Shown here: in pieces, positions 2,030 to 35,422 of the stretch
How the letters are laid out: every line of letters begins with the position of its first letter
How positions within the stretch are numbered: the first letter of the stretch is position 1
Assembly: GCA_002894665.1 (NCBI GenBank)
Contig: NCRB01000031.1
Coordinates: 1 to 41,311, forward strand
DNA: 41,311 nt
From: Salinivenus iranica
GTDB lineage: Bacteria > Bacteroidota > Rhodothermia > Rhodothermales > Salinibacteraceae
Reading direction: 5' to 3'
Translations under genes and position numbers: made by a program
Notes under the pieces: generated by a model
The model's input: the letters and a program-made list of their open reading frames with translations, nothing else
Database searches by the model: none
What the model was told of the DNA's origin: nothing

Positions 2030-3667
2030 TCATACGGCGAGTGTCCGTTTTGACTCAACCTCCTGGTGGCAACCCACACACAGGCTCACCAGATTTTCCA
2101 GGCTGTTGGCCTTCTCTGGGTTCTCATATCCTGCGTATGGTCTGTGGTGGTGGACCTCGGCTATCTCCCTGTTCAGGTCCTTGCCGCACTTCTGGCAAGT
2201 CCACTCATCCCTGTTCAGGGCTTTCCATCGTTGATCCATCCAACCTGTTCTTTCTTCCTGGAAAGCCAACCAAGTGGCCTCCTCTGGAAGTATGTCCTCT
2301 GTTGATCTATCACCATCCAGGTACGGGTGCGGTTTGTCCGTTCGCGGCTCCATGTATCGCGTGGACATATCCGCTATGTAGGCCAACTCTTTCCCCTCAA
2401 CCTTCAGGGGATCAGTATGCTCCAGGATATTCTCCACAAGGTACTTCCGTGAGCATTCGTGCTTCCCCGCCAGCCAGTGGGTCAACCTGTGCCAAGCGAA
2501 GGACTGCACTTCTGGTAGTACCTTTGCGGCGTCTTCCGCATACTTGTAGTAGTTCGCCCATCCTCTGAGGACGTAGTTAAGAGCCATGACTTTTGCCCTT
2601 GAGGACACTTGATTGTCCCCATCAGTCACTGCCTTGATCTTGTCCCTCACGTCCTTTTTGGCCTCCTTGGGTACGTGCTTCCTCACTCCCCCTGTCTCTT
2701 TATCTCGTTCCAGATAGAAGCCGAGGAAGTGGAAGCCGTCATTTGCGTGGACAATCTCCGTCTTTTTCTCGGAGAGGGTGAGGTGGAGTTCTTCTTCCAC
2801 GAAGTCCTCCAGCCTCCCGAGCATCTTCTCCGCACGGTCCTTTGTCCCACTTGTTTGGAGCAGGAAGTCATCGGCGTATCTGGCGTAATGCCAAGCACCT
2901 TTACCGTGCGCTCTGCGCAGGTCATGTTCTCTGCGTGTTAGCTCTGTCCACTTCTTGACCCATTGGTCCAGTTCATTCAGATATATGTTCGCCAATACTG
3001 GGGAGACGATTCCTCCCTGTGGCGTCCCTATTGCAGACTTATGGAACTCTCCTTCTTCCATGACACCTGCCTTCAGGAATTTCCAGACCAAGGACAGGAG
3101 TTTCTCGTCCGTGATCCGGTTCTTCATGATCTGGATTAGGCGTCGGTGATCCACGTTGTCAAAGAACCCTTTGATGTCCGCATCAATCACCCACATCATG
3201 TTCGACTGCACCACCTTCCCCTGCACAAGTCTCACAGCGTCCAGGGTGCAGCGATTGGGTCTAAACCCAAAGGAGCGGTCACTAAAGACCGATTCATAGA
3301 TCGATTCGAGGACCATCCTGAGCGCCTCCTGCACAATCCTATCACGAATGGTCGGGATTCCCAGAGGGCGTTCCCTGCCATCCCCTTTCGGAATATACGT
3401 TCGGCGCACAGGCTCAGGGGTATAGGACTCCGATTTTAGACTTTGCCGGAGGTCATTCAGGTTCTCACCCAGATTCTCCTCAAAGTCTTCCATCTCTTGT
3501 CCATCTACCCCTGGTGTGTTTGCACCTGAGTTGGACTTCACTTCGCCGTATGCCCGACGCAGGAAGTCTTCGTCATAAACCAGGTTGTACACGTCGTTGG
3601 TACGGAACTCTGGGTCCTTAGCCCAGGTCGCCAACTTCGATTGCATTTCGTCTACATCCATCGGCAT
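2030..3667 (-). CDS. ltrA: group II intron reverse transcriptase/maturase with HNH endonuclease
   Basis: A 545-residue intron-encoded protein that helps splice the intron RNA and copies it into DNA at new sites. Domains in order: RT fingers/palm with the catalytic YADDF at about 264-268, the maturase (X/thumb) region containing GWANYYKYA, and a C-terminal HNH endonuclease with CQKCGKD, EVHHHRP and NLVSLCVGCH, where two Cys pairs would bind zinc. All expected domains are present and the frame is unbroken, so the element may still be mobile. An HNH domain argues against class IIC, whose proteins lack it, and fits a chloroplast-like or bacterial B-type intron; the exact class is inference. The start is ATG at 3667; a second Met two codons later is possible. 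Confidence 0.95.
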   Translation of the reverse strand: MPMDVDEMQSKLATWAKDPEFRTNDVYNLVYDEDFLRRAYGEVKSNSGANTPGVDGQEMEDFEENLGENLNDLRQSLKSESYTPEPVRRTYIPKGDGRERPLGIPTIRDRIVQEALRMVLESIYESVFSDRSFGFRPNRCTLDAVRLVQGKVVQSNMMWVIDADIKGFFDNVDHRRLIQIMKNRITDEKLLSLVWKFLKAGVMEEGEFHKSAIGTPQGGIVSPVLANIYLNELDQWVKKWTELTRREHDLRRAHGKGAWHYARYADDFLLQTSGTKDRAEKMLGRLEDFVEEELHLTLSEKKTEIVHANDGFHFLGFYLERDKETGGVRKHVPKEAKKDVRDKIKAVTDGDNQVSSRAKVMALNYVLRGWANYYKYAEDAAKVLPEVQSFAWHRLTHWLAGKHECSRKYLVENILEHTDPLKVEGKELAYIADMSTRYMEPRTDKPHPYLDGDRSTEDILPEEATWLAFQEERTGWMDQRWKALNRDEWTCQKCGKDLNREIAEVHHHRPYAGYENPEKANSLENLVSLCVGCHQEVESKRTLAV

Positions 3668-12981: not shown

Positions 12982-13217
12982 AGGTGGGAAAGTGGAAGGT
13001 GAGGAAATTTAAGATTGGAAAATGGGTCTGCTAATCTGAATGTCAAGTCAGAAAAAAGTGGTTCGGGGAGGGTATTATGGTCATGATTTGGTCGAAACGA
13101 AGAAATCATGATTCGGGCAGATCTCCAACCTTGAATCTCTGACTGAAACTTTCCATCTGATAATATTCAATCTTTTAATCTTCAACCTTCCAGCCTTAAA
13201 ACCTTTGACCTTAAACA
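12977..13217. repeat. inverted heptamer-type array, fabI-HAD gap
   Basis: An AT-richer gap in GC-rich surroundings. On the left (12977-13024) purine-rich words of alternating 7 and 8 bases follow one another (TTGAAGG, TGGGAAAG, TGGAAGG, TGAGGAAA, TTTAAGA). On the right (about 13124-13217) the same word type appears in reverse complement (read on the other strand: TTTAAGG, TCAAAGG, TTTTAAGG, CTGGAAGG, TTGAAGA). A separate 9-bp perfect inverted repeat, TCATGATTT/AAATCATGA (13081-13089, 13103-13111), sits in the middle. The array begins at the fabI stop codon and ends about 10 bases before the next start. Confidence 0.7.
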
Positions 13218-13227
13218 CGAACGAACA

Positions 13228-32964: not shown

Positions 32965-33057
32965 GCGTAGAATAGGAAATCGAGGATAGAGAATCGACAC
33001 GCGTTTGTTTCCCCACACAATCCTCGATTCTCGTCCTTAGTACTTCGTCAAGTTAAT
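32965..33057. repeat. inverted heptamer array, sdhA-sdhB gap
   Basis: On the forward strand consecutive 7-base words TAGGAAA, TCGAGGA, TAGAGAA, TCGACAC lie at about 32971-33000. After a spacer, the same word type in reverse complement (TCCTCGA, TTCTCGT, CCTTAGT) occupies about 33023-33043. The architecture matches the gaps after fabI and before sdhA, but the words differ. Confidence 0.65.
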
Positions 33058-33101
33058 TCTTTGGGGGCCGAATCGAACTCAAAATCCCGAACATCCAGCA
33101 C

Positions 33102-33290
33102 GTCATGTCGAGCACGGTTGAGACATCTTCCTGGCGAAGCCCCCGCCTTCGGGGAGGCTTCTCGACTGTGCTGAGAGCGAAGCGCCCTGAGCGTAAGCGA
33201 AGAAGTGCTCGTGGAGTGCGACCGAATAGTCACCGGGCTGCGCTGGGAGCGGAGCGACCGAGTGCTCTCCGGGTTTCGGTTCGCTGGCGG
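33102..33290. repeat. palindromic repeat cluster at the 3' end of sdhA
   Basis: At 33102 it begins GTCATGTCGAGCACGG, the look of the 'GTCATxTCGAGCGAAG' interspersed palindromes known from Bacteroidota. A hairpin GAAGCC...GGCTTC spans 33136-33161. The flanks TCGAGCACGGTTGAGA and TCTCGACTGTGCTGA pair imperfectly around it. Two further related units (GAGCGTAAGCGA...AGTGCTC at 33189 and GAGCGGAGCGACCGAGTGCTC at 33247) follow. The last ~13 codons of sdhA are made of this repeat. Confidence 0.7.
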
Positions 33291-34858
33291 GCGCAGGCGG
33301 CGATGGCCTCGGCGTAGTCGACCATGTAGCCAATCTCCACGGCGTCCATCAGGTCGGTGTTGAAGCGCTTGCCCTTGTCGTCCACCACCACATTCTGAGC
33401 GCGGGCCCGGTACTCTTCGATGCGGTCGAGGGCCGTGGAGAGGGTATTTTCGTTGCGGAAGACGCTGACGTTCTCCATCATCGTCTCCTGCAGATCGGTG
33501 CGCACGTTCACGGTGGGCTCGCCCTCGTCGCGCGTGTTCGAGAGGAGGTTGTCGAGCATGTCCCGCGTGTCCTTCTCCGGATTCTCGGGCAGCGGCGTGT
33601 AGTCCTTTCCTTGCTTGACCTCCTTGGCCATCTGCATGCCGGCCCGGCGGCCAAACACCACCAGCTCCAGCAGGGCATTGGTGCCCAGCCGGTTGGCGCC
33701 GTGGATGCTCACGCAGGCGCACTCGCCCACCGCGTAGAGGCCCGGCACGGTGGTGCCGCGCTCGCCGATCTCCACGTGCCCCTTCTCATCGGTGGGAATG
33801 CCGCCCATGGCGTAGTGGCAGGTGGGGACCACCGGAATGGGCTCCTCCTTCGGATTGACGCCCATGTAGGTACGCGAGAACTCCGAAATCTCCGGCAGTT
33901 TCTCGTCGAGGATCTTCTCGTCGAGGTGGGTAAGGTCGAGGTGGACGTAGTTTTTGCCCTGCACGCCGCGCCCCTCCCGAATTTCCTTGTAGATGCACTG
34001 GCTTACCATGTCGCGCGGGGCGAGGTCCTTCACCGTGGGCGCGTAGCGTTCCATGAAGCGTTCGCCCTCGCTGTTGCGCAGGATGCCGCCCTCTCCGCGG
34101 GCGCCCTCCGTGATGAGGATGCCGAGGCGGTAGAGCCCGGTCGGGTGGAACTGCACGAACTCCATGTCCTCCAGCGGGATGCCGTTGCGCAGCATGATGC
34201 CCATGCCGTCGCCCGTGCTGGCGTGTGCGTTGGAGGTGGTCTCGAAGGCGCGGCCGTACCCGCCGGTGGCGAAGCAGACCTGCTTGGCGTGGAACGTGTG
34301 GATTTCGCCGGTCAGGATCTCGTAGGCCACCACGCCGGCGCACTCCCCGTCCTGCATGATGAGGTCGAGCACCTGAAACTCGTCGTAGAACCGGACGCCC
34401 TGCTTCGTGCACTGGTCGTAGAGCGTGTGCAGGATGGTGTGCCCGGTGCGGTCGGCGGCGTGGCAGGAGCGCTTGACGGGCGCTTCGCCGAAGTTGCGCG
34501 TGTGGCCTCCGAAGCGCCGCTGCGAGATCTTGCCCTCCTCGTTGCGGCTAAAGGGCACGCCGTAGTGCTCCAGCTCCACGATGGTCCGCGGGGCGTCCTT
34601 GCAGAGCGCCTCGATGGCGTCCTGGTCGCCCACATAGTCGCTGCCTTTGACGGTGTCGAAGGCGTGCCAGAGCCAGTGGTCCTCTTCCTCGTTGCCGAGG
34701 GCCGCGGCGATGCCGCCCTGTGCGGCGCCGGTGTGCGAGCGGAGGGGGTGCAGCTTGGAAACGACGCCCACGTCGGCCCCGCCTTCACGGGCGTACAGCG
34801 CGGCCATCAGCCCCGAACCGCCCGCTCCAACAACGACGACATCGTGCTCAAAAGTCAT
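33230..34858 (-). CDS. sdhA: succinate dehydrogenase flavoprotein subunit, C-terminally shortened
   Basis: Oxidises succinate to fumarate on covalent FAD. The 542-residue product has the FAD motif VVVGAGGSG, the flavin-linked His42 in '[13 protein letters not shown]', '[26 protein letters not shown]', '[14 protein letters not shown]', '[12 protein letters not shown]' and '[24 protein letters not shown]'. All recognised catalytic regions are present. Homologues continue past the conserved RTESRG for about 45-50 residues (the AHxRxDxPxRDDENWLKHT region). Here the frame reads RTETR, then residues encoded by palindromic repeat DNA, then stop. I found no continuation of the motif in any downstream frame. 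The start is MTFEHDVVV; the frame upstream is open through a heptamer array to a TTG at 34945. Confidence 0.93.
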
Positions 34859-34926
34859 GGTGCGTATTGCGTGTTGCGTATGGCGTATTGCGTAGTGCGT
34901 ATTGACGTATTGCGCATCCGGATCAT
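34855..34926 (-). CDS. possible 23-codon leader ORF overlapping the sdhA start
   Basis: On the reverse strand ATG (34926-34924) follows GGAGG (34933-34929) closely. Its frame ([19 protein letters not shown]...) ends in a TGA that overlaps the sdhA ATG as ATGA. A second Met three codons in has a more usual spacing (11 bases) from GGAGG. Because the DNA repeats every 7 bases, the peptide repeats every 7 residues. It may serve translational coupling of sdhA, or be an accident of the repeat. No homology is expected or seen. Confidence 0.35.
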
Positions 34927-34960
34927 TTCCTCCGTAGATACGCAAGACGAAATACGCAAT
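34859..34960. repeat. inverted heptamer array filling the sdhD-sdhA gap
   Basis: The forward strand shows eight consecutive units of TGCGTAT or close variants (34861-34918; one unit has an extra base), a 20-base spacer containing TCCTCC, then ATACGCA-AGACGAA-ATACGCA (34939-34959), the reverse complement of the unit. The element occupies the gap exactly, from the base next to the sdhA ATG to the base next to the sdhD stop. As RNA it can fold into an imperfect hairpin whose loop carries GGAGG. Confidence 0.85.
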
Positions 34961-35422
34961 TTATCCCCACCCGGCCGTAATCACCGAGTACATTCCGATG
35001 ATGAGCAGGCCGAGGGCCACGGTCCACGAGAGCGACCGGGCGATGAGGCGCCCCATGGGGTCGCGGATGTAGTCGGTCATCACGTTGTTCAGGCCGTAGA
35101 AGCCGTGGTGGAGGGCGACGATGAGAAACAGGATGTTAAAGCCCTTCCACAGCACGGCGTAGACCGGGTCGGCCAGGCGCTGCATCACCACCTGGTAGGG
35201 CGTCGCCTCCGCGTCGGGGCCGAAGCGGGCCCGTACCCCTTCCTTGGCCTCCTCCGGGTAGTCCGGCATGGCCCCCTGCTCGGTCACCACCTCGTGGGTC
35301 ACCGACGCGGCCTGGTGGTCGTAGTGCTGCACCCAAAAGTGGGTGATCAGCATAAAGATGAGGAAGGTGCCTGTGATGCGGTGCAGAAACCAGTTGAGCG
35401 CGTTCGACGTGGAGGCAGCCAT
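34961..35422 (-). CDS. sdhD: succinate dehydrogenase membrane anchor subunit
   Basis: A 153-residue inner-membrane protein with three predicted helices: residues ~10-32 (WFLHRITGTFLIFMLITHFW), ~88-110 (VLWKGFNILFLIVALHHGFY) and ~125-148 (SLSWTVALGLLIIGMYSVI). 'HRITG' near the N-terminus and 'ALHHGFYGLNNVMTDY' in helix 2 are the SdhD-like quinone/heme region. With SdhC it forms the b-type anchor for SdhAB. The loop between helices 1 and 2 is long and acidic (EEAKEGVRARFGPDAEA). It is 51 bases downstream of sdhC. Confidence 0.9.
   Translation of the reverse strand: MAASTSNALNWFLHRITGTFLIFMLITHFWVQHYDHQAASVTHEVVTEQGAMPDYPEEAKEGVRARFGPDAEATPYQVVMQRLADPVYAVLWKGFNILFLIVALHHGFYGLNNVMTDYIRDPMGRLIARSLSWTVALGLLIIGMYSVITAGWG

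Follow-up and report, generated by a model that had tools for sequence, protein, structure and literature searches.

The 102 bp between sdhD and sdhA in this genome hold an inverted array of heptamers that is probably a gene-less member of a class of S23-linked intergenic hairpins, similar to the intervening sequences (IVSs) of 23S rRNA and defined by design, not by sequence. This design consists of tandem 7-bp (rarely 8-bp) units, a spacer and reverse-complement units, with the G-rich arm first, and the gene-bearing members of the class carry an S23-type four-helix-bundle gene (PF05635/TIGR02436) between the two arms. The evidence, all of it observed directly in the genomes, comes from the physical association of arrays with S23 genes, their co-occurrence, the matching words of paired arms, gaps found both empty and filled, length changes in unit steps, inversion of a spacer and joint switching of words. 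To our knowledge, the S23/IVP family, which has a solved pentameric structure and a wide distribution, has no known function, and few simple repeats in bacteria are as poorly explained as heptamer arrays. With the two linked, the repeats have a candidate agent and S23 has a candidate substrate, and both can be put to the test. The link would also help explain the complete rewriting of operon intercistronic gaps between close relatives, and suggests that the intervening sequences of rRNA belong, as one branch, to a larger class of elements.

The sdhD-sdhA repeat

The repeat fills positions 34859-34960 of the window, the whole stretch of 41,311 nucleotides that was analysed. Both neighbouring genes are on the minus strand: upstream of the gap is the gene for an sdhD-type membrane subunit (34961..35422, 153 aa), with its stop codon at 34961, and downstream is sdhA (33230..34858, 542 aa), with its ATG at 34858. 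Read on the plus strand, the gap begins with GG, followed by the 5′ arm (34861..34917), which is formed by eight TGCGTAT-type units, one of which has a 1-nt insertion. A 20-nt spacer, the loop region of the hairpin (34918..34937, CCGGATCATTTCCTCCGTAG), separates this arm from the opposite, minus-strand arm (34938..34958), which is made up of three reverse-complement units, ATACGCA-AGACGAA-ATACGCA. The sequence-only reading of the gap is exact in the number of units in both arms and in the length of the spacer. On the sdh mRNA strand, the arm at 34861..34917 is the 3′ arm and reaches the sdhA start codon.

The repeat is not due to chance. TRF reports period 7 at 34861-34914 (score 78), the 7-bp autocorrelation score of the gap is 21.4 compared to a maximum of 12 among 5000 shuffles, and the inverted-arm score is 17 compared to a maximum of 14 among 200 shuffles. 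With tandem 7-bp units and reverse-complement units nearby in an intergenic gap, the sdh copy has the design of the class. There is no S23 gene inside it, the gap being 102 bp long and its contig (C58) having no PF05635 match, and its word, TGCGTAT, flanks an S23 gene on both sides elsewhere in the same genome (C88:18110-18580).

The same design had also been proposed for two other gaps in the window, and here the support is uneven: strong at sdhD-sdhA, weak after the fabI-like gene and absent at sdhA-sdhB. The gap following the fabI-like gene (12982..13227) has weak inverted arms (AGGTGGGAAAGTGGAAGG.. / ..CTTCAACCTTCCAGCCT, p = 0.025), with values for period 7/8 of just 0.46-0.53. Its orthologues in two relatives, G003 (offset 146622) and G011 (158161), contain heptamer repeats with other words, arranged as an inverted heptamer pair in G011 and as a shorter one in G003. 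The sdhA-sdhB gap (32978..33029) contains a single 10-nt inverted repeat (AATCGAGGAT/ATCCTCGATT) that is not significant (p = 0.105). A different feature recorded for the sdhA-sdhB gap, at 33100-33229 of the window (CACGTCATGTCGAGCACGGTTGAGACATCTTCC...GAGGCTTCTCGACTGTGCTGAGAGCGAAGCG), resembles an imperfect inverted repeat of a further intergenic type.

Heptamer arrays across the genome

The sequence-only reading had proposed a scan for a genome-wide excess of 7-bp arrays, and such an excess was found. Allowing one mismatch, TGCGTATTGCGTAT matches 67 times in the genome and 0 times in a reversed control. In 1.39 Mb of the genome, split into intergenic and coding DNA with a simple home-made gene predictor, intergenic DNA contains 14 strong arrays of period 7 and 15 of period 14, while every other period from 3 to 16 is represented by zero or one array, with the exception of period 15 (six), and coding sequence contains no period-7 array. 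Seven is the sole basic period in excess in the intergenic DNA of this genome. Because part of the 1.39 Mb had been picked for its matches, array densities (see below) were taken from contigs not picked in this way. Heptamers in the arrays are frequently arranged as alternating pairs (TGCGTAT TTCGTAT) with a super-period of 14 nt, and one array in G011 (C1:2453993-2454088) repeats a heptamer pair many times.

Several words coexist in the genome, including TGCGTAT/TTCGTAT, GTGATGC, TTGGATT, TTTCGAA and GAAGGTT, and on this ground we rejected a single conserved sequence underlying all of the arrays. For 33 of 74 arrays, and for none of the random flanks, a reverse-complement partner (score at least 12) lies within 200 bp. 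The G-richer arm is the 5′ arm in 25 of 26 distinct pairs and, since an inverted repeat is identical from either strand, the order of the arms belongs to the element itself. Arrays are depleted in divergent (promoter) gaps, occurring in 1 of 152, compared to 26 of 528 gaps between co-directional genes and 4 of 56 between convergent genes (30 of 584 non-divergent gaps).

S23 genes between matching arms

The first S23 case came from a variable gap in G003, in which an ORF resembling the S23/23S rRNA intervening sequence protein lies between matching arrays; PF05635 is matched in this genome at C1:643939-644250. The family is present in 32 of 41 relatives, with seven copies in the genome of the window. 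The protein was identified through TIGR02436 (four helix bundle protein) and PDB 2gsc (XCC0516, E = 6e-23), a solved structure from Xanthomonas.

We surveyed the surroundings of 57 PF05635 genes, 30 of them in Rhodothermales and relatives and 27 in other phyla, which by record title include Desulfobacterota, Ignavibacteria, Marinimicrobia and Calditrichota. A 7- or 8-bp array lies within 150 bp of the gene in 26/30 and 24/27 cases, respectively (87-89%), compared to 25/260 and 67/689 control genes with such an array beside them (10%). The upstream and downstream flanks share an inverted match of at least 15 at 18/30 and 23/27 PF05635 genes and at 6% and 4% of controls (Mann-Whitney p = 1.5e-10 for the Rhodothermales set and 7e-14 for the other phyla). 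The flank words vary from locus to locus, while the two arms of one gene match each other. The best-matching flank of the row was the gene's own partner in 20 of 26 cases from other phyla and in 8 of 30 in the Rhodothermales set, the latter number being low because words are common to several loci. The polarity seen in the genome of the window recurs here, with the G-richer arm upstream in 37 of 41 strong S23-flanking pairs. Approximately 12% of PF05635 genes have no array nearby.

Examples in the genome of the window are C65, C70 and the C88 locus with TGCGTAT arrays on both sides, and the S23 loci that were read in detail adjoin protein genes such as der, purA and leuCD. Taken together, these loci bear on the earlier claim that the arrays are not copies of one mobile sequence, which proved half right. 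The words do differ between gaps, but TGCGTAT forms one dispersed family of fixed polarity, and the arrays are tied to S23/PF05635 genes that lie between matching arms.

Two side observations were made at these loci. Distant lineages have S23 genes upstream of the same housekeeping gene (L282, L284, L289, L292, L302, L304 and C70 of G000; L295, L342, L355), namely der, encoding the EngA GTPase, in different families of the order, and purA in one Rhodothermales and two delta-type genomes. Because several S23 sites (upstream of der) are common to genera of the order, the gene is often vertically inherited and not freely mobile, which counts against our reading. The arrays flanking S23 at L308, L335 and L294 apparently have an 8-nt and not a 7-nt period (e.g. 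GAATGGGT / ACCCATTC).

Co-occurrence of arrays and S23 genes

Arrays and S23 genes also occur together across genomes. In a sample of 50 diverse genomes, reached via their SdhA loci and not chosen for repeats, 22 contain PF05635; 7-bp arrays were found at 12 of the 22 loci from these genomes and at 0 of the 28 loci from genomes without the family (p = 5e-6). Periods 8 and 14 likewise follow the presence of PF05635, and periods 5, 6 and 9-13 are not associated with it. This co-occurrence is partly confounded by phylogeny, and the comparison within the order is cleaner. Five relatives without PF05635, most of similar GC, contain zero genuine 7-bp arrays in 388 kb, two period-7 matches in G028 having been discounted as homopolymer runs. 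Genomes with the family contain 17 in 784 kb (the genome of the window, on contigs not picked for matches) and 10 in 200 kb each (G003 and G011, where the stretches were partly placed around known loci).

These absences weigh on a simpler explanation, namely that plain polymerase slippage, for which units of about 7 nt are easiest, generated the arrays, that template switching or fold-back copying generated the arms, and that S23 genes are tolerant passengers. Among repeats of 5-11 nt, heptanucleotides are reported to be the most frequent in many bacteria, and polymerase slippage has been proposed as their origin (cited in PMC4679880); the 7- and 14-nt unit changes and exact spacer inversion that we describe below between 97%-identical relatives fit this explanation. 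Nevertheless, we consider it rather unlikely, as slippage does not predict the lack of arrays in the five PF05635-negative relatives and in the 28 other PF05635-negative genomes, or the fixed G-first polarity, and local fold-back alone would have difficulty producing matching arms on either side of a gene of ∼400 bp.

A different agent could be a Y1 transposase or a DGR-like reverse transcriptase, mobilizing a family of the REP/RAYT or reverse-transcriptase-driven type. Dispersed intergenic palindromes with fixed polarity are in keeping with such a family, and PF05635 is homologous to Avd, a reverse transcriptase accessory protein (PMC10053308). However, both enzymes are missing from array-bearing genomes, which largely refutes them as agents and leaves this explanation with very little probability. 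There is no PF00078 in array-rich G001, G003, G006, G009, G010 and G012, and no PF01797 in array-bearing G001, G010, G011 and G012, of which G001, G010 and G012 are without PF00078 as well. The window itself encodes a 545-aa ORF with a reverse transcriptase domain (2030-3667, minus strand; PF00078, E = 7.7e-40), which is the sole RVT_1 match in its genome and is absent from most of the genus.

Variation of the same gaps between relatives

We compared the sdhD-sdhA gap in 12 genomes of the genus, including the genome of the window (G000). The TGCGTAT word is found in G000, G001, G003, G007 and G008, and a GTGANNC/TCACGC word in G002, G006, G009, G010 and G012; G004 has degenerate remains and G011 has no array. 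In G023, from another genus, the word is of an AAAACTG type. The inverted design is mostly kept across the 12 genomes while the word changes. The earlier proposal of different words with one design is therefore borne out in a stronger form, with different words occupying one orthologous gap in different species. The word classes interleave on the sdh gene tree, and G003 and G011, neighbors on this tree, have completely different sdh gaps. The best pairing of 5′ arms is with 3′ parts of the same word class (mean on the diagonal 14.9 vs. 10.2; permutation p = 5e-5), and both arms of the gap change together.

Changes at other gaps are equally informative. G003 and G011 (∼95% identical) have TGCGTAT and GTGATGC hairpins, respectively, at G003 offset 90444, one of several such gaps. 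Between G000 and G001 (∼97% identical), the 23-nt spacer at C84 is exactly reverse-complemented relative to its flanks, and C36 and C113 switch words. The switch at C36 is partial, with GTGA in the loop-side units and TGCGTAT still in the outer units. At C130, C57 and C1 the length differences correspond to array units, and gains and losses of units between relatives come in steps of 7 or 14 nt, while C36:21309, C92 and the sdh gap are nearly unchanged between G000 and G001. The unit steps, the spacer inversion and the joint change of arms support the process that creates or maintains inverted 7-mer arrays, as had been suggested from the sequence alone. The C65 gap contains an S23 gene with TTTCGAA arrays in G000 and a gene-less TGCGTAT hairpin in G001, and a single gap can thus be filled by a hairpin either with or without the gene. 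The C88 site of G000 (matched by L255, G001 C6) is occupied in G001 by a long TGCGTAT-type array and in G000 by ∼150 bp of unrelated palindromic sequence between array remnants.

Selection by the host is another way to keep hairpins between cistrons, for example as terminators, attenuators or mRNA processing and stability elements. The distribution over gaps (26 co-directional, four convergent and one divergent) and the arms of the sdh gap, which stay complementary through changes of word, would be expected from such regulatory hairpins. What makes them improbable is that the array is replaced or absent in the same operon gap of sister species (the sdh gap of G011, the leuC-leuD gap of G004 and G005) and that words and lengths are unconstrained. 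A terminator in the sdh gap was rejected, as relatives have a different sequence, or none of the array, in the corresponding gap of the operon. The RNA folding (MFE) z-scores of sdh gaps across the genus are also modest (-0.0 to -2.0); folding energy was therefore left out of our argument, and no case is made for selection on a stable RNA hairpin.

Cassette exchange between leuC and leuD

An S23 gene lies between leuC and leuD in nine of 13 genomes of the genus. G004 and G005 have a short gap with neither array nor S23 cassette, and the LeuD search gave distant matches alone in G007 and G002. No target-site duplication was seen by eye at the empty and filled gaps that were compared, and no transposition with target-site duplication was seen otherwise. 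The nine S23 proteins form two clades (support 100/100). All four members of one clade (G000, G008, G009 and G010) have TGCGTAT flanks, and all five members of the other (G001, G003, G006, G011 and G012) have GTGA flanks, an exact split with a probability by chance of 1/126 if the nine genomes are independent. On the sdh tree, G000 and G001 are sister genomes (branch lengths <0.01), yet their leuC-leuD S23 proteins belong to different clades with ∼63% identity. This exact match of clade and word, together with the split between sister genomes, indicates that protein and word were exchanged together. The counts of TGCGTAT and GTGA arrays per genome, compared by eye, follow the S23 clade weakly.

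Incongruence of this kind, seen for both the word classes and the S23 clades relative to the sdh gene tree, could also arise if homologous recombination imported whole gap alleles between species and the elements themselves were inactive. Import of a whole gap needs no S23 activity to switch words, and can explain the joint change of arms as well. We nonetheless find it doubtful as the full account, since the partial switch inside the C36 array and the spacer inversion at C84 are not whole-gap imports, and the diversity of alleles would itself still need a source.

Proposed mechanism

We infer an active role for S23 and a mechanism at the RNA or DNA level. The S23 protein would act in trans on an RNA or DNA form of the hairpin and promote the copying, matching or spread of its arms. 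The elements would behave selfishly, residing in intercistronic gaps where an RNA hairpin, folded or cut, does little harm, and cutting would resemble the cleavage of IVS stems by RNase III. Slippage and the switching of strands between arms may cause words to drift, and exchange of a whole cassette may swap them. Slippage combined with homologous import is the main rival to this active role of S23, and the two may act together.

A broader proposal, which we put forward tentatively, is that these elements form a new selfish class in several phyla, in which an S23/Avd-type four-helix-bundle protein maintains and spreads hairpins of a heptamer word specific to its own S23 lineage. Gene-less hairpins would then be non-autonomous copies, rRNA IVSs would be an rRNA-inserted branch, and many unexplained heptamer repeats of bacteria would be included.

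Comparison with known systems

REP/RAYT systems comprise many non-autonomous intergenic palindromes and few gene-bearing copies, with a conserved REP sequence and a Y1 transposase as companion. The elements described here similarly have many gene-less and few gene-bearing copies, but conserve the design and not the word, and the Y1 transposase is dispensable; its absence from the four array-bearing genomes named above argues against REP/RAYT membership. A DGR or retrohoming system was likewise rejected on the absence of PF00078 from the six array-bearing genomes listed above, and a classical IS-element MITE was rejected as the arm sequence at one site varies between species. Heptanucleotide repeats are also present in the P6b stem of the cyanobacterial tRNA-Leu(UAA) intron, where heptamers pair with their complements in one stem. 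These differ in being confined to a single locus in a group I intron.

The closest likeness is to the IVSs of 23S rRNA. In IVSs with an S23p ORF, such as those of Coxiella burnetii and Leptospira, the ORF is enclosed by terminal inverted repeats whose pairing gives a stem, of 28 bp in Coxiella; IVSs have been called selfish, and the stem is cut by RNase III in vitro (PMC4990558). PF05635 has in turn been recognized as a homologue of Avd (PMC10053308). Both systems have pairing arms with or without an S23 gene between them, at sites where interruption does little harm, and the gene-bearing members share with IVSs an S23p-family ORF between the arms, which the sdh copy is without. IVSs are located in 23S rRNA helices, whereas the elements here occupy gaps in protein-gene operons, as in the sdh copy between sdhD and sdhA. 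Their stems are arrays of 7-bp words that differ between sites, and gene-less copies are abundant. The sdh repeat is not classed as an IVS because it lies outside 23S rRNA, the defining site.

Heptamer arrays have been described in other bacteria. Rehm et al. (2015) reported GGGAATC repeats in Xanthomonas and GGGGA(C/T)T repeats in Nostoc, with 70-75 paired, oppositely oriented GGGAATC arrays per genome in two Xanthomonas genomes (PMC4692102). The inverted heptamer layout, which in the sequence-only reading had no known named precedent, thus has one in these Xanthomonas pairs. Like the arrays here, the Xanthomonas and Nostoc repeats are intergenic, and those of Xanthomonas share the inverted pairing and a G-rich word; that paper differs in describing one word per genome, read as G-quadruplex-forming, with no companion gene noted (PMC4692102). 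TAACTGA repeats in marine Beggiatoaceae, cyanobacteria and some Bacteroidetes (MacGregor, 2015; PMC4679880) likewise form intergenic arrays of 7-bp units, often located immediately upstream of start codons. They differ in being almost all direct, with one inverted case in the main genome and related words rare, and were read as binding sites for a translation regulator (PMC4679880).

Heptamer arrays (PMC4679880; PMC4692102) and IVSs with S23p (PMC4990558) are therefore already known. The open-licence papers to which the literature search was limited include none found to join S23 genes to heptamer arrays, and the link is new as far as that literature goes. It suggests that these hairpin elements are a class that has been overlooked and that has a companion gene of its own.
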